Below are positions 7,512-45,909 of a DNA stretch of 64,000 nt, in pieces; position 1 is the first letter of the stretch, and each line of letters opens with the position of its first letter. The notes beneath the pieces are model-generated. The model was not told where the DNA came from. It saw nothing but the letters and a program-made list of their open reading frames with translations, and searched no databases. The stretch is from Lachnospiraceae bacterium (lineage in GTDB: Bacteria > Bacillota > Clostridia > Lachnospirales > Lachnospiraceae). Made by a program: the position numbers and the translations under genes. The stretch spans positions 1 to 64,000 of the forward strand of contig CABJAW010000001.1 in NCBI GenBank assembly GCA_902363665.1, read 5' to 3'.

Positions 7512-8674
7512 TTAACTTGCAAATCTTTCTCCATAAGCCTTGAGATTTATAGATGCCTGGAAATCTCTGTCTATTATATTCCCACACCCACATCTATAAA
7601 TTCTGTCTGATAACTTCAAATCTTTTTTGATGTTCCCACAACAGCTGCAAAGCTTTGATGATGGATAAAACCGGTCAGCCACAATAAGCGGAATCCCTTT
7701 ATCATTGCACTTATATTCAAGCTGTTTCCGAAACAAAAAAATCCCTGTTCCTGGACTGCTTTGGATAAATGTCTGTTTTTCATCATTCCACTGACCTTCA
7801 GATCTTCAATACATATAAATCTTGGTTTTCGATTTACGATTTCCGATATGGCCTGATTCAAATAATTTTTACGGATGTTTGTTAATCTGTGATTTCGTTT
7901 CAATAAAAGCTTTTCCTTTTTGATTACATTATTTGTTTTACAGTAACTTTCCCCTTTCTTATTTTTCCCGTAAGAACGAGAAATACTACGCTGTAATCTG
8001 CGTTTCTGTTTTTCTGATTTTTTTACTTTCTGGCTCTTATTGATGTTCTTATACTTCACGGCATCAGAGCAGACAGCCAGGTCTTTGATTCCCAAATCTA
8101 TGCCGACTCCGTCATCATTAAGCGTTTCCCTGCAGTCCGGAAATTCCACACATACACTGATCCACCAGTTCAATCCGTCAAAGGATATTCTCGGATTCAT
8201 ATATTTAGCATCGGTCGGAATACGTCCATGTTCTGCAAGTCTTACCCAGTTCATTTTTTGTTTATTTGCTTTCCTGCCAGAAGAAAAGCCTTCAAATTTA
8301 ACGTGGGTATTACTGAATCGTATCTTAACATTGTCCTGATAGAACTTCGGCATTGATCTCTTTTTGGACTTGAATCTTGGAAATTTTTGCAAACCCTTGA
8401 AAAAATTCTTATAAGCAGTGCAAACATCTTTAATTGCCTGCTTGGTGACATTATTTGAAATATTCAATAACCATGCATATTCATTAGAATGTCTAAGCTT
8501 TGTAAATTCCTTTCTGAGTTCTGAATCTGAAAGGAACCTGCCGCCTTTTTCATAGTTTTCTTTTTCCATTGCCAAAGCCCAGTTATAAGCAAATCTTGAA
8601 GCACCTGCGTACTGAAACATCTTAGTTTTCTGTACATTGTTTGGTATCAGCATTACTTTTATGGCTTTTACCAT
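7512..8674 (-). pseudogene. tnpB: TnpB (IS607/IS605 type), frameshifted
   Basis: RNA-guided nuclease-family protein of IS200/605 and IS607 elements, split by a frameshift. The first part (8674 to about 7737) has the basic N-terminal half and RuvC acids in GIDLGIKDLA and CIEDLKVSG. The C-terminal part continues in another frame from about 7736 to 7512 and holds the zinc ribbon (CSCCG...CGCG) and the third RuvC acid in DRDFQASINL. The break lies at a run of seven T on the coding strand; one more T would restore the frame. This looks like an indel, though a sequencing error or slippage is possible. The tnpB start overlaps the end of tnpA, as usual in IS607. The guide RNA would lie at the 3' end near 7330-7560, but this is not demonstrated. 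Confidence 0.85.
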
Positions 8675-9281
8675 CTGTATCCCCCTGAATCAATTCCCGA
8701 ATAAGTTTCTTAGCTTTATTTGCTCGCTTTCCTTGTAATTTACAGCTAAATACTGTAATTATCTGAATCAGATCTTCAACAAGTTCCTGCTGTTCGGATT
8801 TTTCAGTATTATCAATAATTTCTATCTCACAATTATAAAGCGAAGCTATATATTCTACTAACTCGAAACCAAACCGTAAAAGCCGGTCTTTATATAAAAC
8901 AACAACCTTCTCAACCTGATTTTGAGAGATCCGTTTGATCAGTTCCTGAAGCCCTTTTTTCTTGTAATTGATACCGGAACCAATATCATATATTATCTCA
9001 AACGGCTGTCCTTTTGCCAGAAGATATGTCTTAACATTATCGATCTGTCGTTCCAGATCATCTTTTTGTTTATGACTGGAAACACGGCAATATCCAATTG
9101 TAATGCGGTTTTTAGGCTTTACATTTAATACCTGGTTCAGTTGCTCATCAGAGTAATATCTATAACCACTTACTGTAGTATGATGCGGATGAAGTTTTCC
9201 ATTGGCATCCCAATTTCGTAATGTCTGGGCAGATACGCCTATAATTTTTGAAAATTCATGTATAGAATAATATTTACTCAA
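8622..9281 (-). CDS. tnpA: IS607-family serine recombinase TnpA
   Basis: Small serine transposase. The N-terminal MerR-like helix-turn-helix (SIHEFSKIIGVSAQTLRNWD) precedes a serine resolvase domain whose catalytic serine lies in IGYCRVSS, with the further active-site region YKDRLLRFG. The HTH-before-catalytic-domain order defines IS607. The frame opens at 9299, but AAAGGAG would then lie inside the gene; a TTG at 9281 with that site eight bases upstream is the better start. It overlaps tnpB. This gene looks intact, so it could still mobilise the element without a working TnpB. Confidence 0.88.
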   Translation of the reverse strand: MSKYYSIHEFSKIIGVSAQTLRNWDANGKLHPHHTTVSGYRYYSDEQLNQVLNVKPKNRITIGYCRVSSHKQKDDLERQIDNVKTYLLAKGQPFEIIYDIGSGINYKKKGLQELIKRISQNQVEKVVVLYKDRLLRFGFELVEYIASLYNCEIEIIDNTEKSEQQELVEDLIQIITVFSCKLQGKRANKAKKLIRELIQGDTDGKSHKSNADTKQCTEN

Positions 9282-9374
9282 AGCATCAACTCCTTTCAAT
9301 ACTATTCTACCCTAATATCCTATAAAACTCAACATGTAATTATATAATTTTATAATTTATATTTATCTGTTAAC

Positions 9375-11955: not shown

Positions 11956-12222
11956 TTATCCCATCATTTCATAGATTTCACACATAGCAATCTGTGCCTG
12001 TGTAATTTCATTTTCAAGATCAGCATTCTTTTCTGCCTGAATTTTAATGTATTCGTCCTTGTCATACTCGATAAGGTCAAATTCATATCCGGTAAATCCC
12101 GGCTGTCCGTCAGTTTCATCTTCATTCACTTCTGTGACGTTGGAACTGACAAATACTTTTGTTTCCGTCAGTTCCAGTTCTTCCGGTCTGACGGTGCTTT
12201 TCTGTTTTCCATAATCAATCAT
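11956..12222 (-). CDS. Small conserved phage tail-region protein
   Basis: An 88-residue acidic protein with a basic start (MIDYGKQKSTVRPE), a QPGFTGYEFDLIEYDKDEYI motif and a C-terminal helical stretch. I recall similar proteins near the lysis genes of Firmicute phages, without known function. Its ATG overlaps the stop of the reverse transcriptase gene (ATGA), so it is translated with it. It was considered as a DGR accessory (Avd) protein, but it lacks the length and basic four-helix character of Avd. Confidence 0.75.
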   Translation of the reverse strand: MIDYGKQKSTVRPEELELTETKVFVSSNVTEVNEDETDGQPGFTGYEFDLIEYDKDEYIKIQAEKNADLENEITQAQIAMCEIYEMMG

Positions 12223-13349
12223 GATGCTTTCAATCCTTTCTTTGTGTTTGGTTTTATGTTGCGTATATAATAATCATCCGCATAAGGTAACAGCGGTACA
12301 ACATACTTTTGATATAGCCGGAAGGTGTCAGCATATTTCAACCAACCTTTGTAAGAATTGATTGAACACCACTCTGAATAGTTCATCATGTTCCCGGCTT
12401 CCACTTTGTTCCTGATAGCGGTCATTTTCTTTTCCATTTCCAAACAGGTGCTTTTTCTAAGTAATGTATACTTGTAAAATGTTCTGTAACCTAAGAAGTC
12501 AACACCTCTTATGTATGATGGGAACACCTGCCAGTTTTCTTTTATGTTCAATTTCAGTTCATTCCTGAAATAAATATCAATCTCTTTCTTCAAGGCAAAC
12601 AGTTCTTCTTTTGTCTTGCCAAAGATAACCATATCATCCATATAACGGAAGTAGTATTTAACGTGCTTCTGTTCTTTTATCCAGTGATCAAAACTTGAAA
12701 AATAATAGTTACCTGAATACTGTGATAAGTAGTTGCCTATCGGTATACCAGTTTCAGGGTCAATATCTTCTTCCAACAGATAGATTGCTGTTAAGTCCTC
12801 AATCTCTGCTGTTTCAATACTGTCAATGATTTCATTTAACAACCACAATAGTTCATTATCATTGAACATTCTTGAATACTTCTCTTTCAGAAGATCGTGG
12901 TTGATTGACTGATAATAGTGTCTTGCGTCCAATTTTAAGCAATATCTGCATTCTTCCGGGTCATTCCACATTGCAGATTGTAATTTTGTCAGACCCTTGT
13001 GTATACCTCTGTTTGGTATTGCTGAATAGGTGTCAGCAGTTAAGTTATTGATGATACAAGGTTCAATAACCTGTAAGATAGCCCACTGACAAATTCTGTC
13101 AGGGAAATAAGGCAGTTTGTAAATTTTCCTTAACTTCTTACCGTCCTGTTTATAAAACACCTCATAGTCAGATGTTTTGTAAGTGTGGTTGATAAGCATT
13201 TCCTGAATCTGTTTCAGGTACTTGTCAGGGTCTTTGTCAATCTCCTGAACCTCTCCGTACCAACCTTTTCCTTTCTTTGCGTGTTGGTGTGCTTTTCTTA
13301 AATTTTCAAGGTCATAAATCTTTTCATATAAGTGATCATAGCGTTTCAT
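12219..13349 (-). CDS. Diversity-generating retroelement reverse transcriptase
   Basis: A 376-residue reverse transcriptase. Visible features are the first catalytic aspartate in KLDARHYYQSIN (D141), the DGR-type motif IGNYLSQ (204-210, where group II and retron enzymes usually have QG), and the active site YMDD (236-239). A basic thumb region follows. In DGRs this enzyme copies the template repeat RNA with errors at adenines, and the cDNA replaces the variable repeat. The template repeat lies 213 bases upstream and the target gene just beyond, giving the order target, TR, RT on one strand. The frame is intact. Confidence 0.96.
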   Translation of the reverse strand: MKRYDHLYEKIYDLENLRKAHQHAKKGKGWYGEVQEIDKDPDKYLKQIQEMLINHTYKTSDYEVFYKQDGKKLRKIYKLPYFPDRICQWAILQVIEPCIINNLTADTYSAIPNRGIHKGLTKLQSAMWNDPEECRYCLKLDARHYYQSINHDLLKEKYSRMFNDNELLWLLNEIIDSIETAEIEDLTAIYLLEEDIDPETGIPIGNYLSQYSGNYYFSSFDHWIKEQKHVKYYFRYMDDMVIFGKTKEELFALKKEIDIYFRNELKLNIKENWQVFPSYIRGVDFLGYRTFYKYTLLRKSTCLEMEKKMTAIRNKVEAGNMMNYSEWCSINSYKGWLKYADTFRLYQKYVVPLLPYADDYYIRNIKPNTKKGLKAS

Positions 13350-13521
13350 TCCTTGGTATTTGCATTATCCGAATTTCAGTCGGCATTACTGCCCGGTAAA
13401 TACGGTTGACCTTTCCTTATTGTTCGTAAGTAAGACGGTATTCCCGGTTGGGTTGTCTGCACCGTCTATTTTTCTGTTTTGCCTAGTGGCATGGTTGAAA
13501 GAACCGCACAGTATTATAGAA

Positions 13522-13547
13522 ATAGCCGGATGTTTCCACCCGGCTAT
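13522..13547 (-). ncRNA. Hairpin in the DGR template RNA region
   Basis: ATAGCCGG and CCGGCTAT form perfect 8-base arms with a 10-base loop, 15 bases beyond the template repeat on its 3' side. It lies between TR and the RT gene, in the stretch 13350-13561 that has no gene. It may shape the TR RNA that primes or binds the reverse transcriptase, or act as a weak terminator; no T-run follows. Confidence 0.5.
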
Positions 13548-13561
13548 ATTTTGCAATTATT

Positions 13562-13670
13562 AAGTGACCCCTGATATTCCGATTACGATTACCAACACTG
13601 TTATTCAGATTCCAATAGAAACTGCCTGCATTATCCCAATTATTCCAATTACTGCCTAATTGAGCAATAT
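13562..13670 (-). repeat. DGR template repeat (TR)
   Basis: A 109-base non-coding copy of the variable repeat at 13836-13944 (offset 274). Read on the minus strand in the frame of the target gene it encodes ten Asn codons (AAT/AAC), as in SNWNNWDN and WNLNNSVGNRNRN. AAY codons give the broadest range of replacements when adenines are mutated. The two copies differ at 24 sites; 23 are adenines in TR (18 A to G, 4 A to C, 1 A to T). Confidence 0.96.
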
Positions 13671-13759
13671 ATTTGTTTTTTCATGGTGTTCATTACAGGT
13701 AATAACAAACAATATCAGAGATTCTTTCAACCTAATGAATTAAATTTACAAGTTACATT

Positions 13760-15901
13760 TTAAGCTGCCATTTTCTGCTTCCATGCTTCGATTGCAGCGG
13801 TATAAGTAGCAGAATCACGTGTTGGAATATATACCAAGCGACCCCCGATATCCCGATCACGAGTACCAACACCGTTATACAGACGCCAACCGAAACCGCC
13901 CGCATCAGCCCAATCAGCCCAACCACCGCCCAATCGAGCAATACGGTAACCGTTCAAGTTGACAGTGACATATGTGTAATCACCAACAGGTAATGAACTG
14001 TTACCAAGGCATTCTGACGCAATAAATAACCAGTCGCAAGCTGTTGAATATCCCATTGCTGAAATATAACCGTTTGCGTTTGTTACTGTGAATCCGGCAG
14101 GTTCATAGTTTCCACTGTTCTTTGATTCTGCAAAACTGAAATCAGAACAAATATAAGGCTGACCGCCGCCCATTTTTCCATTGCCCCAAATATTGATACC
14201 ATAGACAAATTTCCAAATGTTGCCCCAAAAGTTTTCTTTGCCTCTCCAACATACAGAAGTCTTACCGTCAACAGTGTACTCTTTAGCAACACCACCCTCA
14301 TAAGTAGTTGTTTTCTCTGCCCTACCTGTACCATTTCCAAGGCTTGCTGTACTTCCGGTTGCAGCTGCATATGAACTTGTTGTGTCACTTCCTGTAGTCC
14401 AAGGTAAGGAAACAATACCCTGTGCAATAGCGGTCTGTAAGTTCATCATACCCATTTCAATGAGCATAAGCATCTGTTCAGCAGATACCTGTTTAATCAG
14501 ATCACCATGCCAGTTTGTTCCACGATTCTGTGCCATTGCTTCAATATTCGGTCTTGTAAGGTTCTGTGAAGAACCGGATGCAGGTCTTGCACCTGCGATT
14601 GATGAAAACTTATCTTCACCAGTGTTCATAACCTGTTCATCATTCAACAGATATGCACTTGCTGATGCATCGTAAATACTACCTTCGTAAGCACTTGTAA
14701 GGAAATAATCAATTTCATTTCCTGATGCATCGTAGAATGCCGGGTGAAGTCTGAAACCTGCACGTGGCTTTTCTGACACATAATAGTTTGCCTTTCTTAA
14801 GTGGTAACCAATGCCTGTATCAATAGGGTCATACTCTACAGGACACACCAAATAATAGAACTTTGGCTGATATACCATTACCTGACCCATTGAACCATCT
14901 TCTTTGTAATCTGCATCACCGTACCATGCTACGATAGAACCATCATCAGCAACATTACAGCGTTTACGACCACCAAACATTGTGAACTTGTCAAAATCAG
15001 AACCTTTTGTAAGGTTGGCTGCTCCGGCAAGTCTTTTGAATGTTTTATTTTTGTAATCGACCTGAATACCAACAATATCATCAGCAGTGATACCCAAATA
15101 GGCACGAATATCTGCCACACCTGAAAGAATTTCTTGACTGTTGAAGTTTTCACTTTTCAGTTCATCAATATTACTTGCAGCACTTGCGTTTTCCGCACTT
15201 AGTGACTGTAATACATTATTAGCTGTTGCAACAGATGCATCAAGGTTTGACTTTGCGGTATTGGCTGTACTTATGACATTAGACAATGACGTTTTAACTG
15301 AACTTGCACTGTTAATTACTTCCTGAAGCTGACTTTTTGCTACACTTGCATCAGAAATTGCAGAATCAAGATTTTTCTTTGATGTTACCGCTGTAGCGTT
15401 GGAACTATCCAACTGACCCTTAATCTGATTTGCATTATCAATTACACCCTGTAAATTACTCTGTGTGGTTGTTGCACTTGTAATTACTTTTTCAAGATTT
15501 GTTTTTGCTGCATTGGCATTGCTGATTGCTGTTTTTGCAGCATTAGTTGCTGCTTCAACATTACTTTTTGCGGTATTCGCTGTACTTGTTGCATTGGTCA
15601 GATTTGATTTTGCGGTATTGGCTGTATTCGTAGCGTTCTGCAAATTGGTTTTCGCTGTATTGGCTGCACTTGTAGCATTTTGCAAATTAGTTAATGCAGT
15701 ACTTGCAGCATTAAGTTTCTGCTGTACTGCATCAACATCTTTATCAACCGCATCCTTTGCAGCAATTACTTCTTTTTTCAGATCAGCGTAAGAGTTATTA
15801 TCATCATTTACTTTTTCAAGTGCATTGACAATAGACGATCTTACCTCTTCACCATATACTGCATTTAAAATCTGATCAATATAAGGCTGTATGTTTGCCA
15901 T
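13760..15901 (-). CDS. DGR-diversified tail fibre / receptor-binding protein
   Basis: A 713-residue structural protein. The N-terminus (MANIQPYIDQILNAVYGEEV) is of a type seen in baseplate-attached fibres. Residues about 45-250 are a long alanine/asparagine/threonine-rich helical repeat built from TANTAKSNL-like units, probably a trimeric coiled-coil shaft. From about 430 onwards is a formylglycine-generating-enzyme/C-type lectin-like domain (FWGNIWKFVYGINIWG) ending in the DGR variable region at 653-689. By analogy with Mtd-like proteins the variable residues form the ligand surface. It is downstream of the tail-tip genes, and its start overlaps the stop of the 79-residue gene upstream. Confidence 0.93.
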   Translation of the reverse strand: MANIQPYIDQILNAVYGEEVRSSIVNALEKVNDDNNSYADLKKEVIAAKDAVDKDVDAVQQKLNAASTALTNLQNATSAANTAKTNLQNATNTANTAKSNLTNATSTANTAKSNVEAATNAAKTAISNANAAKTNLEKVITSATTTQSNLQGVIDNANQIKGQLDSSNATAVTSKKNLDSAISDASVAKSQLQEVINSASSVKTSLSNVISTANTAKSNLDASVATANNVLQSLSAENASAASNIDELKSENFNSQEILSGVADIRAYLGITADDIVGIQVDYKNKTFKRLAGAANLTKGSDFDKFTMFGGRKRCNVADDGSIVAWYGDADYKEDGSMGQVMVYQPKFYYLVCPVEYDPIDTGIGYHLRKANYYVSEKPRAGFRLHPAFYDASGNEIDYFLTSAYEGSIYDASASAYLLNDEQVMNTGEDKFSSIAGARPASGSSQNLTRPNIEAMAQNRGTNWHGDLIKQVSAEQMLMLIEMGMMNLQTAIAQGIVSLPWTTGSDTTSSYAAATGSTASLGNGTGRAEKTTTYEGGVAKEYTVDGKTSVCWRGKENFWGNIWKFVYGINIWGNGKMGGGQPYICSDFSFAESKNSGNYEPAGFTVTNANGYISAMGYSTACDWLFIASECLGNSSLPVGDYTYVTVNLNGYRIARLGGGWADWADAGGFGWRLYNGVGTRDRDIGGRLVYIPTRDSATYTAAIEAWKQKMAA
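13836..13944 (-). repeat. DGR variable repeat (VR)
   Basis: Mutated copy of TR forming codons for about residues 653-689 of the tail-fibre gene. Changes replace Asn and Ser of TR by Gly, Ala, Asp, Arg, Tyr and Thr (IARLGGGWADWADAGGFG in VR). One difference (TR 13617, VR 13891) is a T to G on the coding strand and does not follow the adenine rule. VR ends 76 bases before the stop, as usual for DGR targets. Confidence 0.95.
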
Positions 15902-34350: not shown

Positions 34351-34551
34351 CTAATGAAACACCTTACCTGATTTTTTATGTTTCAATGTCACCCTTCCAA
34401 CAATTTCAAACCCGGCAATGTCAACAATGTTCCTGATTACTTGAATCAGTCTGTGGTTACGGTCATTTAGTTCTGCATTTTCTTCCCTTTTAACTGTTGC
34501 CATTGCTGCACCTGCTGTTGGGTCAACATATCCTTCACTATTTTTGTACAT
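34351..34551 (-). CDS. Small early phage protein, unknown
   Basis: 66 residues (MYKNSEGYVDPTAGAAMATV) with a helical middle and a basic end (LKHKKSGKVFH). It overlaps the 3' end of the methyltransferase gene by 14 bases, which supports real translation. I do not recognise it. Confidence 0.65.
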   Translation of the reverse strand: MYKNSEGYVDPTAGAAMATVKREENAELNDRNHRLIQVIRNIVDIAGFEIVGRVTLKHKKSGKVFH

Positions 34552-35548
34552 TTACATCTTTCCTTTCCAAAATATCACTTATGATCACTCTAAACATTTC
34601 TTCAAAAATAGGTACTACTATTGAATTTCCTGATTGGTGGTACAGTGTTCTGTTCATTTTTCCCGGTTCAACTTTGCAGGTTGACTCTGCTGCATAATAA
34701 TCTTCGTCAGAATACCCCATCAACCGCCAACATTCCAATTCTGTTAAATACCTATATTTTCCATCCCCTAAATCAATGACCTGTGCCGGGGTTCTGTCCT
34801 GTCTTGTAGTTATTGTATTTGCATAATCTTCAATAACCTTTGCCCTTCTGATTCCTTTTTTGCCTATCGAATTGTATACGCTTGGTTGTGTCACCATGTA
34901 ACAATCAGATATATTTCCTGATTCAAGAAAATTTGAAATATCACGCATTGGTCTTTTCTGCATCAACTCAAAATCAAAAGGGTGATCACCTAAAACAGAA
35001 ACAGTAAAACATCTTTGTCTTGCTTGCGGTATACCATAATCACGTGCATCTAAGACTTTGTAGTTATTGGAATATCCAAGCTTTTCCATATACGACAGGT
35101 ATCGGTTGAAATTGTGAATCATGTGTTTTGATAAAACATTCTTTACATTTTCCCACACAACAACAGTCGGTTTCCATTCTCCCATCTGTTCGATAATGTG
35201 TACTGTTTCCCACATCAATGATGATCTTGTTCCTGAACCTTCATCAGCACCTTTACCCTTGTTAATTCTTCCATCGGCTGCTGTTGCCTTCCCTTGATGT
35301 CCGGCAATACTAAAATCTTGACAGGGTGAACCATGAATTAAAATGTCAGGTTTTAAATTCCAATTAACAACTGACTGTGTTTCATATGACAGTTCATCAG
35401 CAAACATTGCATTGTACGATCTGACCGCTTTTTCATCTATTTCAACATAATCTATTGCCTTTACAGGTATACCCATATTTCTTAACGCAACCCTTGGTGA
35501 ACCGATTCCACCGAATAATTCAATAATTTGTATCTTTTTCATCTTCAT
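34538..35548 (-). CDS. DNA (cytosine-5-)-methyltransferase
   Basis: About 336 residues with the C5-methyltransferase motif series: I (ELFGGIGSPRVAL), IV with the catalytic cysteine (HGSPCQDFSIAG), VI (VWENV), VIII (QARQRCF) and X (QSGNSIVVPI). No restriction enzyme gene is adjacent, so it is an orphan methylase, probably guarding phage DNA against host restriction. Several ATGs are possible; 35548 (MKMKKIQII) has AAAGGA at good spacing. Confidence 0.92.
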   Translation of the reverse strand: MKMKKIQIIELFGGIGSPRVALRNMGIPVKAIDYVEIDEKAVRSYNAMFADELSYETQSVVNWNLKPDILIHGSPCQDFSIAGHQGKATAADGRINKGKGADEGSGTRSSLMWETVHIIEQMGEWKPTVVVWENVKNVLSKHMIHNFNRYLSYMEKLGYSNNYKVLDARDYGIPQARQRCFTVSVLGDHPFDFELMQKRPMRDISNFLESGNISDCYMVTQPSVYNSIGKKGIRRAKVIEDYANTITTRQDRTPAQVIDLGDGKYRYLTELECWRLMGYSDEDYYAAESTCKVEPGKMNRTLYHQSGNSIVVPIFEEMFRVIISDILERKDVNVQK

Positions 35549-35744
35549 CACCATCCTTTACCGGGCAGTGATCACAATCACCATTTGCAGCACCAAAACA
35601 CCCCCAACAATCATCAATTTCTTTTGTCTTTGGTTTATACTTCTTAGCTGTTGCAGCTAATGCCATTACTACAGCACCAAGGATTAACCCAACCGTAAGA
35701 CCAACGCAAAAACAAACCGTACCTGTTAATACTAACTTTTCCAT
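35520..35744 (-). CDS. Small membrane protein with cysteine cluster
   Basis: 74 residues: an N-terminal membrane helix (GTVCFCVGLTVGLILGAVVM), then a soluble part with CWGCFGAANGDCDHCP, which could bind a metal. It overlaps the methyltransferase start. The function is unknown. Confidence 0.65.
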   Translation of the reverse strand: MEKLVLTGTVCFCVGLTVGLILGAVVMALAATAKKYKPKTKEIDDCWGCFGAANGDCDHCPVKDGDEDEKDTNY

Positions 35745-43843: not shown

Positions 43844-45176
43844 CAGTTAGTTCCTTTCCTTCCTGCAATGCTGCAAGATTCCTTTCTTCAAAACTTCCCT
43901 TTACCAGTAGGTAATAGTAGAAACATGGTCTGTTCTGACCGATTCTGTGTATACGTTTCTTTGATTGTTCCCAAAGATCACAAGACCCTTTTCCGAGGGG
44001 CAGTGTAAAATACACAATCTTATTTGCTTTCTGATAGTTACCACCCATTGCCCCTGCTTGGTACTGAACAAATGTGACACTGTTATCTACACATTCATAT
44101 GCATACATTGAACGTCCTGAACCATTTACAAAACTGACTTCCCTGTTAAGTGATTCACATATTTTTCTAAGTCTTGTCAGTTCTTCATTGAAGTTATAAA
44201 ACACAATCAACCGATCTTCAGTTGATTCCAGTAAGTCCCTGAATGCTTCCAGTTTTTCCTTATGCCATTGACCGCACAGTTGTCTGCAATATAATGTTTT
44301 GGTCAGGCTATTATCACCGATCAACTCAACCCTTGGTGTCACATCTTCACCTTCAAAATCTGAATCATCTTTGAATCTGACTAAGTTCCTTGTATCAAGT
44401 TCCAAGTAATTGTGTTTGATGAAAAACTTATATTCATTTGTAATCTTCAAGAAAATTTTCTGTTCAGTCTGTTCAGGCAGTTCAATCACTTCTTCTGTTT
44501 TCATAAACACTGCACCAAACTGTGTAAGTCTTTTCTTCAAATGCTCAACGTGCTTATATCCTGTGATTACTTCTTTCTTGTACCCATCACCATTTTCAAT
44601 CCATTCTGTCTGAACATAGGAAGCATAAAAGGCTTTCTTGTTAATATCCCAACCTAACAACTTAAGCTGTGACCACAACCGTTCATACTTTCCTGCTGTT
44701 GGTGTACCTGACAGCAAGATCACGCTTTCCGGTTGTAACTTCAATATGAATTTTGACCGTTTAGCGTTTTCATTACATATAAGGCTTGATTCATCAAGTA
44801 ACAATGTAAAGTCGGTTATATGGGCTATATACTTACGTCTGAATACCAAATCATAATTGATTACACCGACAATCTGAATGTTCTGATCATACAGGTCTTT
44901 GGTTTCAACCAGTGTACGGAAGTTCACACCTTCACTTTTCTTGGTCAAGTCCATAACTCTGTATTCCGGGTAATACGTTTTCATGTGATCAACCCAATCA
45001 TCAACCTTTGACTTTTGGCATACGATCAGATTTACCGTATTGTTCAGCAAGTACATTTTTTCAGCCCCTACAAAAGTTTTACCAAGTCCCATATCTAAGT
45101 AATAAGCACACCTGTTTTTATCATCAGTCAGGTTCAGCACTTCTTCCTGATGGGGCATGAATTGAAGATCATTCAT
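43824..45176 (-). CDS. SNF2-like superfamily 2 helicase
   Basis: 450 residues with Walker A MGLGKT, a DESS box in place of DEAH, LLSGTPTAG (motif III), and motif VI SKKRIHRIGQ. This is the compact phage type of SNF2/DEAD helicase frequently encoded next to VRR-NUC and primase genes. It probably remodels DNA or displaces proteins in replication. The start is supported by overlap with the preceding gene. Confidence 0.9.
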   Translation of the reverse strand: MNDLQFMPHQEEVLNLTDDKNRCAYYLDMGLGKTFVGAEKMYLLNNTVNLIVCQKSKVDDWVDHMKTYYPEYRVMDLTKKSEGVNFRTLVETKDLYDQNIQIVGVINYDLVFRRKYIAHITDFTLLLDESSLICNENAKRSKFILKLQPESVILLSGTPTAGKYERLWSQLKLLGWDINKKAFYASYVQTEWIENGDGYKKEVITGYKHVEHLKKRLTQFGAVFMKTEEVIELPEQTEQKIFLKITNEYKFFIKHNYLELDTRNLVRFKDDSDFEGEDVTPRVELIGDNSLTKTLYCRQLCGQWHKEKLEAFRDLLESTEDRLIVFYNFNEELTRLRKICESLNREVSFVNGSGRSMYAYECVDNSVTFVQYQAGAMGGNYQKANKIVYFTLPLGKGSCDLWEQSKKRIHRIGQNRPCFYYYLLVKGSFEERNLAALQEGKELTDELFNT

Positions 45177-45909
45177 CTACCTTAATGCCTGTACACTGTT
45201 CAAAGATTTCAGCATCAAAGTTTGGTATTGACTTAATGTAATTCCTCTGAAAGTCTGATAAGCTGCCCCACCATAACTGACCACATTCAGATTCATTAAG
45301 CACTTTGAGATAACCGCCTGTTGTTTCATAGGTCGGATTTGCTGCCTTTTCTTCATCAGTCATATCTTCTTCATACACCCATTCAACAACGTCTTTTGGT
45401 ATCTGATTCAGTAAATATCTTGCATCTGATCTCAACCAATCGTTATAGGTTATATCTGACGGTTTATTGAACAGCGTGATCTTCTGTTCTTCTGTATTAA
45501 AACAACCAGTATTGAAAGAAGATTTGTTGCAGTCCCCGGTGTTCCAGTCCCCGGTGTTCCTGTTCCCGGTGTTCCAGTCCCCGGTGTTGCAGAATCCTGT
45601 GCAATCCTTTCCAGTATTTACGATTGTCAAAAGTTCCTGCCAAGGAATTTCACGCACGATCTGAATTTTATTGGTGCATGATTTCTTACCGTCTGTATCT
45701 ACTTCACCAAGTGCAACTACCTCTGCAACCTTGTTTTCAGAATTAAAACTGTAATAGCTGAAACAGTCAGCAGCTTTTTCACAAAAATGAAAACCTCTAT
45801 CACAACATCTTGGCTTAACATCTTCTTCAAAGATTTTTCCTACTTCATACTGGAAACCTCTGCAAGTCCAGTCAGGGTTGAATACCTTATAACCTTTAAC
45901 TTCACTCAT
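45169..45909 (-). CDS. DUF7666-like protein with NTG pentapeptide-type repeats
   Basis: 246 residues. The N-terminal part (CRGFQYEVGKIFEEDVKPRC, then GFHFCEKAADCFSYY) fits a domain of unknown function seen in phages. Residues about 106-140 are five-residue repeats (NTGDWNTGNRNTGDWNTG), expected to form a right-handed beta-helix. The C-terminal part is unique, with WWGSLSDFQRNYIKSIPN. The repeat DNA (15-base units) could change length by slippage. The role is unknown. Confidence 0.78.
   Translation of the reverse strand: MSEVKGYKVFNPDWTCRGFQYEVGKIFEEDVKPRCCDRGFHFCEKAADCFSYYSFNSENKVAEVVALGEVDTDGKKSCTNKIQIVREIPWQELLTIVNTGKDCTGFCNTGDWNTGNRNTGDWNTGDCNKSSFNTGCFNTEEQKITLFNKPSDITYNDWLRSDARYLLNQIPKDVVEWVYEEDMTDEEKAANPTYETTGGYLKVLNESECGQLWWGSLSDFQRNYIKSIPNFDAEIFEQCTGIKVDE

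Follow-up and report, generated by a model that had tools for sequence, protein, structure and literature searches.

A diversity-generating retroelement (DGR) is present on the minus strand of a 64,000-nucleotide stretch of Lachnospiraceae bacterium DNA (positions 1 to 64,000 of contig CABJAW010000001.1, GenBank assembly GCA_902363665.1; the whole stretch is called the window below), and in the group of related reverse transcriptases (RTs) to which it belongs, here clade I, the base found in the variable repeat (VR) opposite an adenine of the template repeat (TR) is related to the two neighbors of that adenine. Adenines in AA contexts appear in VR as all four bases, whereas adenines with a pyrimidine (Y) on the 5′ side and a G or C on the 3′ side (YAG and YAC) are G in nearly every case. 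This context rule is well supported as a clade I pattern by the counts from natural sequences given below, and the RT itself is its probable cause. The nearest relatives of the window element are in three IMG/VR contigs (L001, L002 and L003) and in a contig from a genome of Coprococcus comes (L081), whose RTs are 97–99% identical to that of the window; L081 shares its TR/VR region with L003. The parts of the element that enter these measurements are the following:

13760..15901, minus strand: DGR target gene, a 713-residue tail fiber with a C-terminal variable domain (phrog_5302 tail protein)
13832..13943, minus strand: VR, fiber codons 653–690
13558..13669, minus strand: TR, between the fiber gene and the RT gene, conserved in L001, L002 and L003
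13565..13657, minus strand: the part of TR with seven YAG or YAC adenines that are G in VR, from the list of TR/VR differences
13558..13573, minus strand: putative IMH*-like 3′ end of TR (IMH, initiation of mutagenic homing), from fixed A-to-G differences against VR 13832–13847
12219..13349, minus strand: DGR-type RT of 376 residues, from its open reading frame (ORF), motifs, profile matches and tree position

On the minus strand the fiber gene with VR is followed by TR and then by the RT gene, and TR and VR pair without gaps at an offset of 274 nucleotides. Over 108 nucleotides the two repeats differ at 23 positions, 22 of which are TR adenines (17 A-to-G, 4 A-to-C and 1 A-to-T); TR has 33 adenines in this length, and the hypergeometric probability of such clustering at A is 8e-14. 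The sole non-adenine difference is a T-to-G at 13617/13891. A 112-nucleotide alignment contains 24 adenine differences (19 A-to-G, 4 A-to-C and 1 A-to-T) and the T-to-G, and the count in a preliminary description of this DNA (24 differences in 109 nucleotides, 23 at A, 18 of these A-to-G) corresponds to the 108-nucleotide alignment plus one further base. The position of VR, close to the 3′ end of its target gene, is that expected of a DGR, whose targets usually have a C-type lectin fold; the predicted fold of the fiber matches the DGR variable protein TaqVP (below). A search downstream of VR for a hairpin like that of BPP-1 gave no convincing candidate, only 7-nucleotide arms 28 or 37 nucleotides apart and an 11-nucleotide imperfect palindrome.

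The RT ORF carries GIPIGNYLSQ and YMDD and matches RVT_1 at 1.1e-15, the reverse transcriptase family phrog_1423 at 3.3e-117, and PDB entry 8ub7 at 2.5e-26. In a tree from which rows with stops (L022, L065, L079 and L216) were left out, L031 being absent from the alignment, the window RT clusters with the other RTs that have TR/VR pairs, and the four RTs of the outgroup fall outside this cluster (support 81/82). Two other identities were considered and rejected: a group II intron RT (TIGR04416) scores 100.5 bits against a curated NCBIfam cut-off of 300, and a retron RT (retron St85) 32.7 bits against one of 235. Motifs, profile matches and repeats thus agree with the preliminary description, which had placed a DGR-type RT with IGNYLSQ and YMDD next to TR and had placed VR in the tail fiber gene. 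The RT regions of four relatives (L022, L031, L065 and L079), which lie beside TR/VR pairs, have stops in one-frame translation (in-frame stops or frameshifts).

The loci of 99 related RTs were searched for TR/VR pairs, and ten of them (L008, L016, L020, L027, L063, L067, L083, L088, L098 and L099) gave none; with the window there were 115 different pairs from 78 sources, identical pairs being counted once and pairs scoring below 7 excluded. The context counts took in only adenines that have rewritten AA-context adenines of that VR on either side, and the 3′ 22 nucleotides were left out because A reads G there in TAA contexts too, as expected of a fixed difference between IMH and IMH*. An untrimmed count that includes this IMH-like end inflates CAC-to-G (44/44), and trims of 22 or 30 nucleotides were used instead. 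In the 30 clade I pairs, YAG adenines are G in VR in 112 of 116 cases and A in the other 4, with no C and no T; YAC adenines are G in 45 of 49 and A in 4, again with no C. The AA-context adenines of clade I (n = 540) are read as 250 A, 137 G, 92 T and 61 C (Fisher 4e-50). Where a clade I YAG adenine is the third base of a codon, an A-to-G change is silent, and all 38 such sites are G (TTA 16, GCA 19, GTA 2 and TCA 1). Counting each distinct TR core once, with a single VR (27 clade I elements), gives 99/103 G for YAG and 44/48 G for YAC.

When 19 clade I elements with 16 distinct TRs are aligned, 24 non-A columns are polymorphic. VR agrees with the TR of its own element in 432 of the 436 cells of these columns, so outside the adenines VR is faithful to TR. 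Where a column has G in at least 90% of its VRs, the TR base is either A or G; the share of A is 85 of 178 cells with a 5′ pyrimidine and a 3′ G or C (Y_S) versus 1 of 161 other cells (p 3e-28). TRs that read YAS and TRs that read YGS therefore yield an identical VR, an equivalence that weighs against protein selection, against sites skipped in homing and against repair back to the VR base (below). Non-A mismatches in the RT family of the window number 29 in 4278 tract cells, of which 10 are G-to-T and 8 T-to-G. T-to-G, the non-adenine change of the window itself, leads the non-adenine changes of BPP-1-type pairs (14/22) and ranks second in the family of the window (8/29), a frequency that hints at a secondary error type.

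The seven YAG or YAC differences of the window are at 13657, 13653, 13627, 13623 and 13599 in the tract and at 13572 and 13565 in the IMH-like 3′ end, and nearly all aligned relatives have G at these sites. About a third of the adenine differences of the window (7 of 22 in the 108 nucleotides) would then be fixed edits and not random ones. Taken as a statement that all of the adenine differences are random diversification, the preliminary description is not supported: YAG and YAC adenines are nearly always G in VR. The 3′ end has features of its own: adenine columns 104 and 111 are G in VR in 19 of 19 aligned elements, and fiber codons 686–690 are identical in at least 112 of 115 natural fibers (below). 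The 3′ ends of VR and TR are putative IMH-like and IMH*-like ends, respectively; fixed differences of this sort are reported for archaeal DGRs, with IMH TGGGGT and IMH* TGGAAT, in PMC4372165.

Natural variants of the fiber serve as a mutation-spectrum experiment. Fiber homologues were ranked on residues 200–650, which excludes VR, and the best 120 of 7992 scored were listed; VR is readable in 115 of these (5 were dropped), and 104 of the 115 are 713 residues long. All 115 VRs are different. The 104 fibers of 713 residues have a median of 3 differences from the window in the 476 residues outside VR and a median of 13 in the 38 VR residues, and 94% of their entropy over residues 200–713 lies within those 38. 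In the listed fibers strong variation falls on the TR adenine codons, and the intervening Trp, Gly, Phe, Leu and Arg residues show little or no change. At position 664, 113 of 115 fibers have Gly and 2 have Trp, the state of the window, so most listed fibers fit a TR of the L001 type (GGC AGT) and not that of the window (TGG GAT). An earlier search, whose ranking included VR and hence leaned toward the VR of the window, gave 114 fibers of 713 residues, all 114 of which differed in VR.

The window and contigs L001, L002 and L003 together have a near-identical TR and four distinct VRs. All TR/VR differences of L001–L003 are at TR adenines, to which the window adds its one T-to-G. Non-adenine changes in TR recur in the matching VR: L001 has GGCAGT in place of TGGGAT in both repeats, and a G-to-T near the 3′ end of the L003 TR is also present in the L003 VR. 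These sequence comparisons support an element that diversifies in nature by directional copying from TR to VR. The proposal that the system was recently active is supported by the four VRs on nearly the same TR and the 115 different natural VRs, and the check that had been suggested for it, a survey of VR variation, gave variation mainly at TR adenine codons when run on assembled sequences rather than reads. Its suggested purpose of receptor switching is plausible from the tail fiber target and the TaqVP fold match.

The same contexts were counted in other RT groups. The tract was usable in 84 of the 85 pairs from the other members of the RT family at the 22-nucleotide trim and in 78 of 85 at the 30-nucleotide trim; 67 BPP-1-type loci gave 49 distinct pairs, 26 L110-type loci gave 21 pairs, from which L212 was then moved to clade I by the tree, and 13 L111-type loci gave 13 pairs (low-complexity L215- out, L111 itself in). 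YAG adenines are G in 15 of 17 cases and YAC adenines in 44 of 129 in the 85 other family pairs; the respective values are 6/9 and 6/31 in the 49 BPP-1-type pairs, 8/10 and 18/32 in the 20 L110-type pairs, and 0/3 and 4/19 in the 13 L111-type pairs. For clade I with L212 versus the BPP-1, L110 and L111 types combined, YAG is 114/120 versus 14/22 (p 2e-4) and YAC is 50/55 versus 28/82 (p 1e-11). The YAG-to-G bias may be general and vary in strength, and on these counts YAC-to-G is a clearer mark of clade I than YAG-to-G.

The space between TR and the RT gene, and the ORF beyond the RT gene, contain the following features:

13350..13557, minus strand: TR–RT spacer, probably a structured portion of the DGR RNA, conserved in L001–L003 and with an RT-17 RNA match
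13453..13496, minus strand: sub-threshold match to Rfam RT-17 RNA (RF03020), 29.2 bits against a gathering score of 40.4
13480..13491, minus strand: conserved spacer hairpin TGCC/GGCA, with paired changes in relatives
11956..12222, minus strand: ORF of 88 residues overlapping the RT stop codon, function unknown (phrog_18126)

Of 20 relatives searched, 7 have an RT-17 RNA above the gathering score in the TR–RT spacer, and the spacer conserves an ACC-TGCC..GGCA-AAACA hairpin and a GCAGACAA end like those of that family. The hairpin has two-sided changes in three of its four pairs, and 88 of 88 cells are paired in 26 sequences (23 distinct). The Avd family bAvd (PF22296) matched in 0 of 25 records of the family of the window, many of them fragments and two of them genome assemblies (3.4 and 3.7 Mb), versus 9 of 9 BPP-1-type records. 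No Avd gene was found in the window in a scan that covered the DGR-flanking proteins and some others, and the 88-residue ORF has no Pfam match and so gives no sign of being Avd. A search with PF05635, which we take to be another Avd-like family, matched nothing, controls included, and is uninformative on the absence of Avd. An Avd protein such as that of BPP-1 is not known to be required for DGR membership. The preliminary description called the DGR complete, and this stands for its RT, TR, VR and target but not for an Avd gene. It seems probable that these RTs work with an RT-17-type RNA and without bAvd, with the spacer in the corresponding role. The term RT-17 was not found in the papers returned by the literature searches.

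We consider it likely that this temperate-phage DGR copies C, G and T faithfully and that the outcome at its adenines is set by context, most probably through misincorporation of dC by RTs of its clade. By this mechanism TR and its 3′ spacer would be transcribed, and the spacer would fold into an RT-17-type RNA, the probable substitute for an Avd partner of the RT; the RT would then copy TR into complementary DNA (cDNA), which would replace VR in the fiber gene. These steps are modeled on BPP-1, and the sequences themselves show that VR is copied from TR. In this copying C, G and T would be kept, an adenine in an AA-containing triplet (mostly AAY codons) could become any base, and a YAG or YAC adenine would almost always become G, so that one template letter could carry two instructions, “vary” and “write G”. 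Our confidence is about evenly divided for and against a wider proposal, in which the clade has a two-mode RT, TR is a coded template whose fixed edits possibly mark donor from recipient, and the RT-17 RNA replaces Avd as organizer.

The fixed A-to-G sites have other conceivable origins. Random mutagenesis followed by selection for glycines needed by the fiber fold would account for the three AGT (Ser) codons of TR, which in the 115 natural fibers (345 cells) read Gly 332 times, Ser 8 times and another residue 5 times. The third-position YAG sites of clade I are likewise always G (38/38), where the change is silent, and together with the YAS/YGS equivalence this makes glycine selection a decidedly unlikely source of the rule. 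Old TR/VR differences that homing skips, like those of IMH and IMH*, or that are repaired to the VR base, are the likely situation at the 3′ end, where adenines are fixed in every context, and PMC4372165 has fixed differences of such kind in archaeal DGRs. As an explanation of the fixed sites as a whole we think this unlikely: the counted sites sit between rewritten adenines of the same VR, single-column non-A changes are transferred (432/436), and the choice of A or G in TR is without effect on VR nearly only in the Y_S context. Repair would in addition be expected to let the restored site drift to A with time, and the G-to-T shared by both L003 repeats suggests that even the 3′ end is sometimes copied.

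Editing of the TR RNA from A to I at YAG and YAC by an adenosine deaminase, before reverse transcription, would fit the clade I outcomes at these sites, which are only G or unchanged A (112 + 4 of 116; 45 + 4 of 49). A deaminase family match was found in none of 8 scanned DGR-flanking proteins, a scan that left the rest of the host and phage unsearched, and PMC12875486 reports that context effects are already strong for the BPP-1 RT together with Avd in E. coli; we regard editing as very unlikely. Scarcely credible is a decayed DGR in which TR and VR are fossils and the fiber no longer changes. The stops in the RT translations of L022, L031, L065 and L079 (above) are what it would predict, but the window RT is open with intact motifs, relatives with RTs 97–99% identical to it carry different VRs, and the natural fibers all differ in VR with a median of only 3 of 476 residues differing elsewhere.

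Several observations weigh against context-dependent misincorporation by the RT or against its details. YAT adenines of clade I are not fixed (n = 38: 17 A, 16 G, 4 T and 1 C), and the TAA adenines at the 3′ end, always G in VR, are not explained by the context rule. In the aligned TRs the Trp codon TGG is never written TAG although the rule permits it; perhaps this is avoided because rare failures would give stop codons. The VRs are natural sequences seen after selection. L212, which came from a different query and falls within clade I in the tree, is a poorer fit (YAC 5/6, YAG 2/4), and the YAG bias found outside clade I too, in small numbers, argues against a trait specific to the clade. 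The RT-17 match of the window is below the curated score (29.2 versus 40.4 bits) and lacks the middle of the model, and the role of the spacer and operation without bAvd are inferred.

One of the closest known systems is the DGR of Bordetella phage BPP-1 (mtd, avd, TR, brt), which also has a tail fiber target, the order VR gene, TR and RT on one strand, and adenine-specific differences between TR and VR; the window RT is 28% identical to the BPP-1 RT (bRT; 99 of 348 columns). They differ in that BPP-1 avd lies between mtd and TR, and bAvd is absent from the 25 records of the family of the window. Their spectra also differ: in PMC12875486, bRT in E. coli has a mean misincorporation of 30.65%, and its misincorporation of G (A-to-C in VR) is 26.8% in NAC and 0.08% in NAG, so bRT raises A-to-C in NAC whereas YAC-to-C is 0/49 in the 30 clade I pairs. 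The window RT is in the same PHROGs family as the phrog_1423 gut-phage DGR RTs. In annotated phages a DNA similarity search matched 6 records weakly, and the RT genes of the uncultured phages cr52_1, cr55_1 and cr56_1 match weakly (69–73% over about 2% of the query). We take these three to be crAss-like phages. The predicted fold of the fiber resembles Thermus aquaticus TaqVP (5vf4), a DGR variable protein, at 16% identity and with low model confidence in the VR part; a search of the fiber against PDB sequences gave no match at E up to 0.1.

On sequence grounds this is an ordinary DGR in kind, and its unusual part is the context-gated mutational spectrum. A survey of 155 DGRs (PMC3521204), in a section titled “Nucleotide substitutions are essentially random”, spoke against strong enzymatic bias, and PMC10743442 reports that A-to-C is rare at the second position of AAC codons, leaving enzyme or selection open. 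In the literature searched, a systematic context map was found only for the BPP-1 RT (PMC12875486), and a near-deterministic YAG/YAC rule was not found, subscription papers and preprints lying outside the search. If the rule is true, a count of TR adenines overestimates DGR diversity, TR/VR differences could be separated into programmed and random ones, and comparison of RT clades could reveal the residues that set the spectrum; if the tie between RT-17 RNA and DGRs without bAvd is true, it gives that RNA family a likely function.

The DGR is placed between the tail module and the holin and lysin genes of a prophage that also has integrase, terminase, portal, major head, tape measure, Dit, primase, polymerase and repressor-like genes, a set that fits the siphovirus label given in the preliminary description. 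Pattern searches of viral contigs with VR and TR found only L001–L003 and no further contig. In L081 (6343–7593), and alike in L003, the fiber ORF is 416 residues long with the VR module kept, and it opens inside the last part of the upstream tail gene, which is shortened. In many of the loci L033–L097, including those in Bacteroidetes genomes, one TR serves two or three VRs, which lie at varied distances from TR and often in small tandem genes. Elsewhere in the window, an IS607-type element (7616–9299, with a MerR/serine-resolvase gene and a TnpB-like OrfB gene) is beside the lysin end of the prophage, a C5 cytosine DNA methylase gene of the prophage occupies 34541–35554, and a repeat with a 15-nucleotide period and overlapping copies is found at 45525–45599 within the ORF at 45169–45909.

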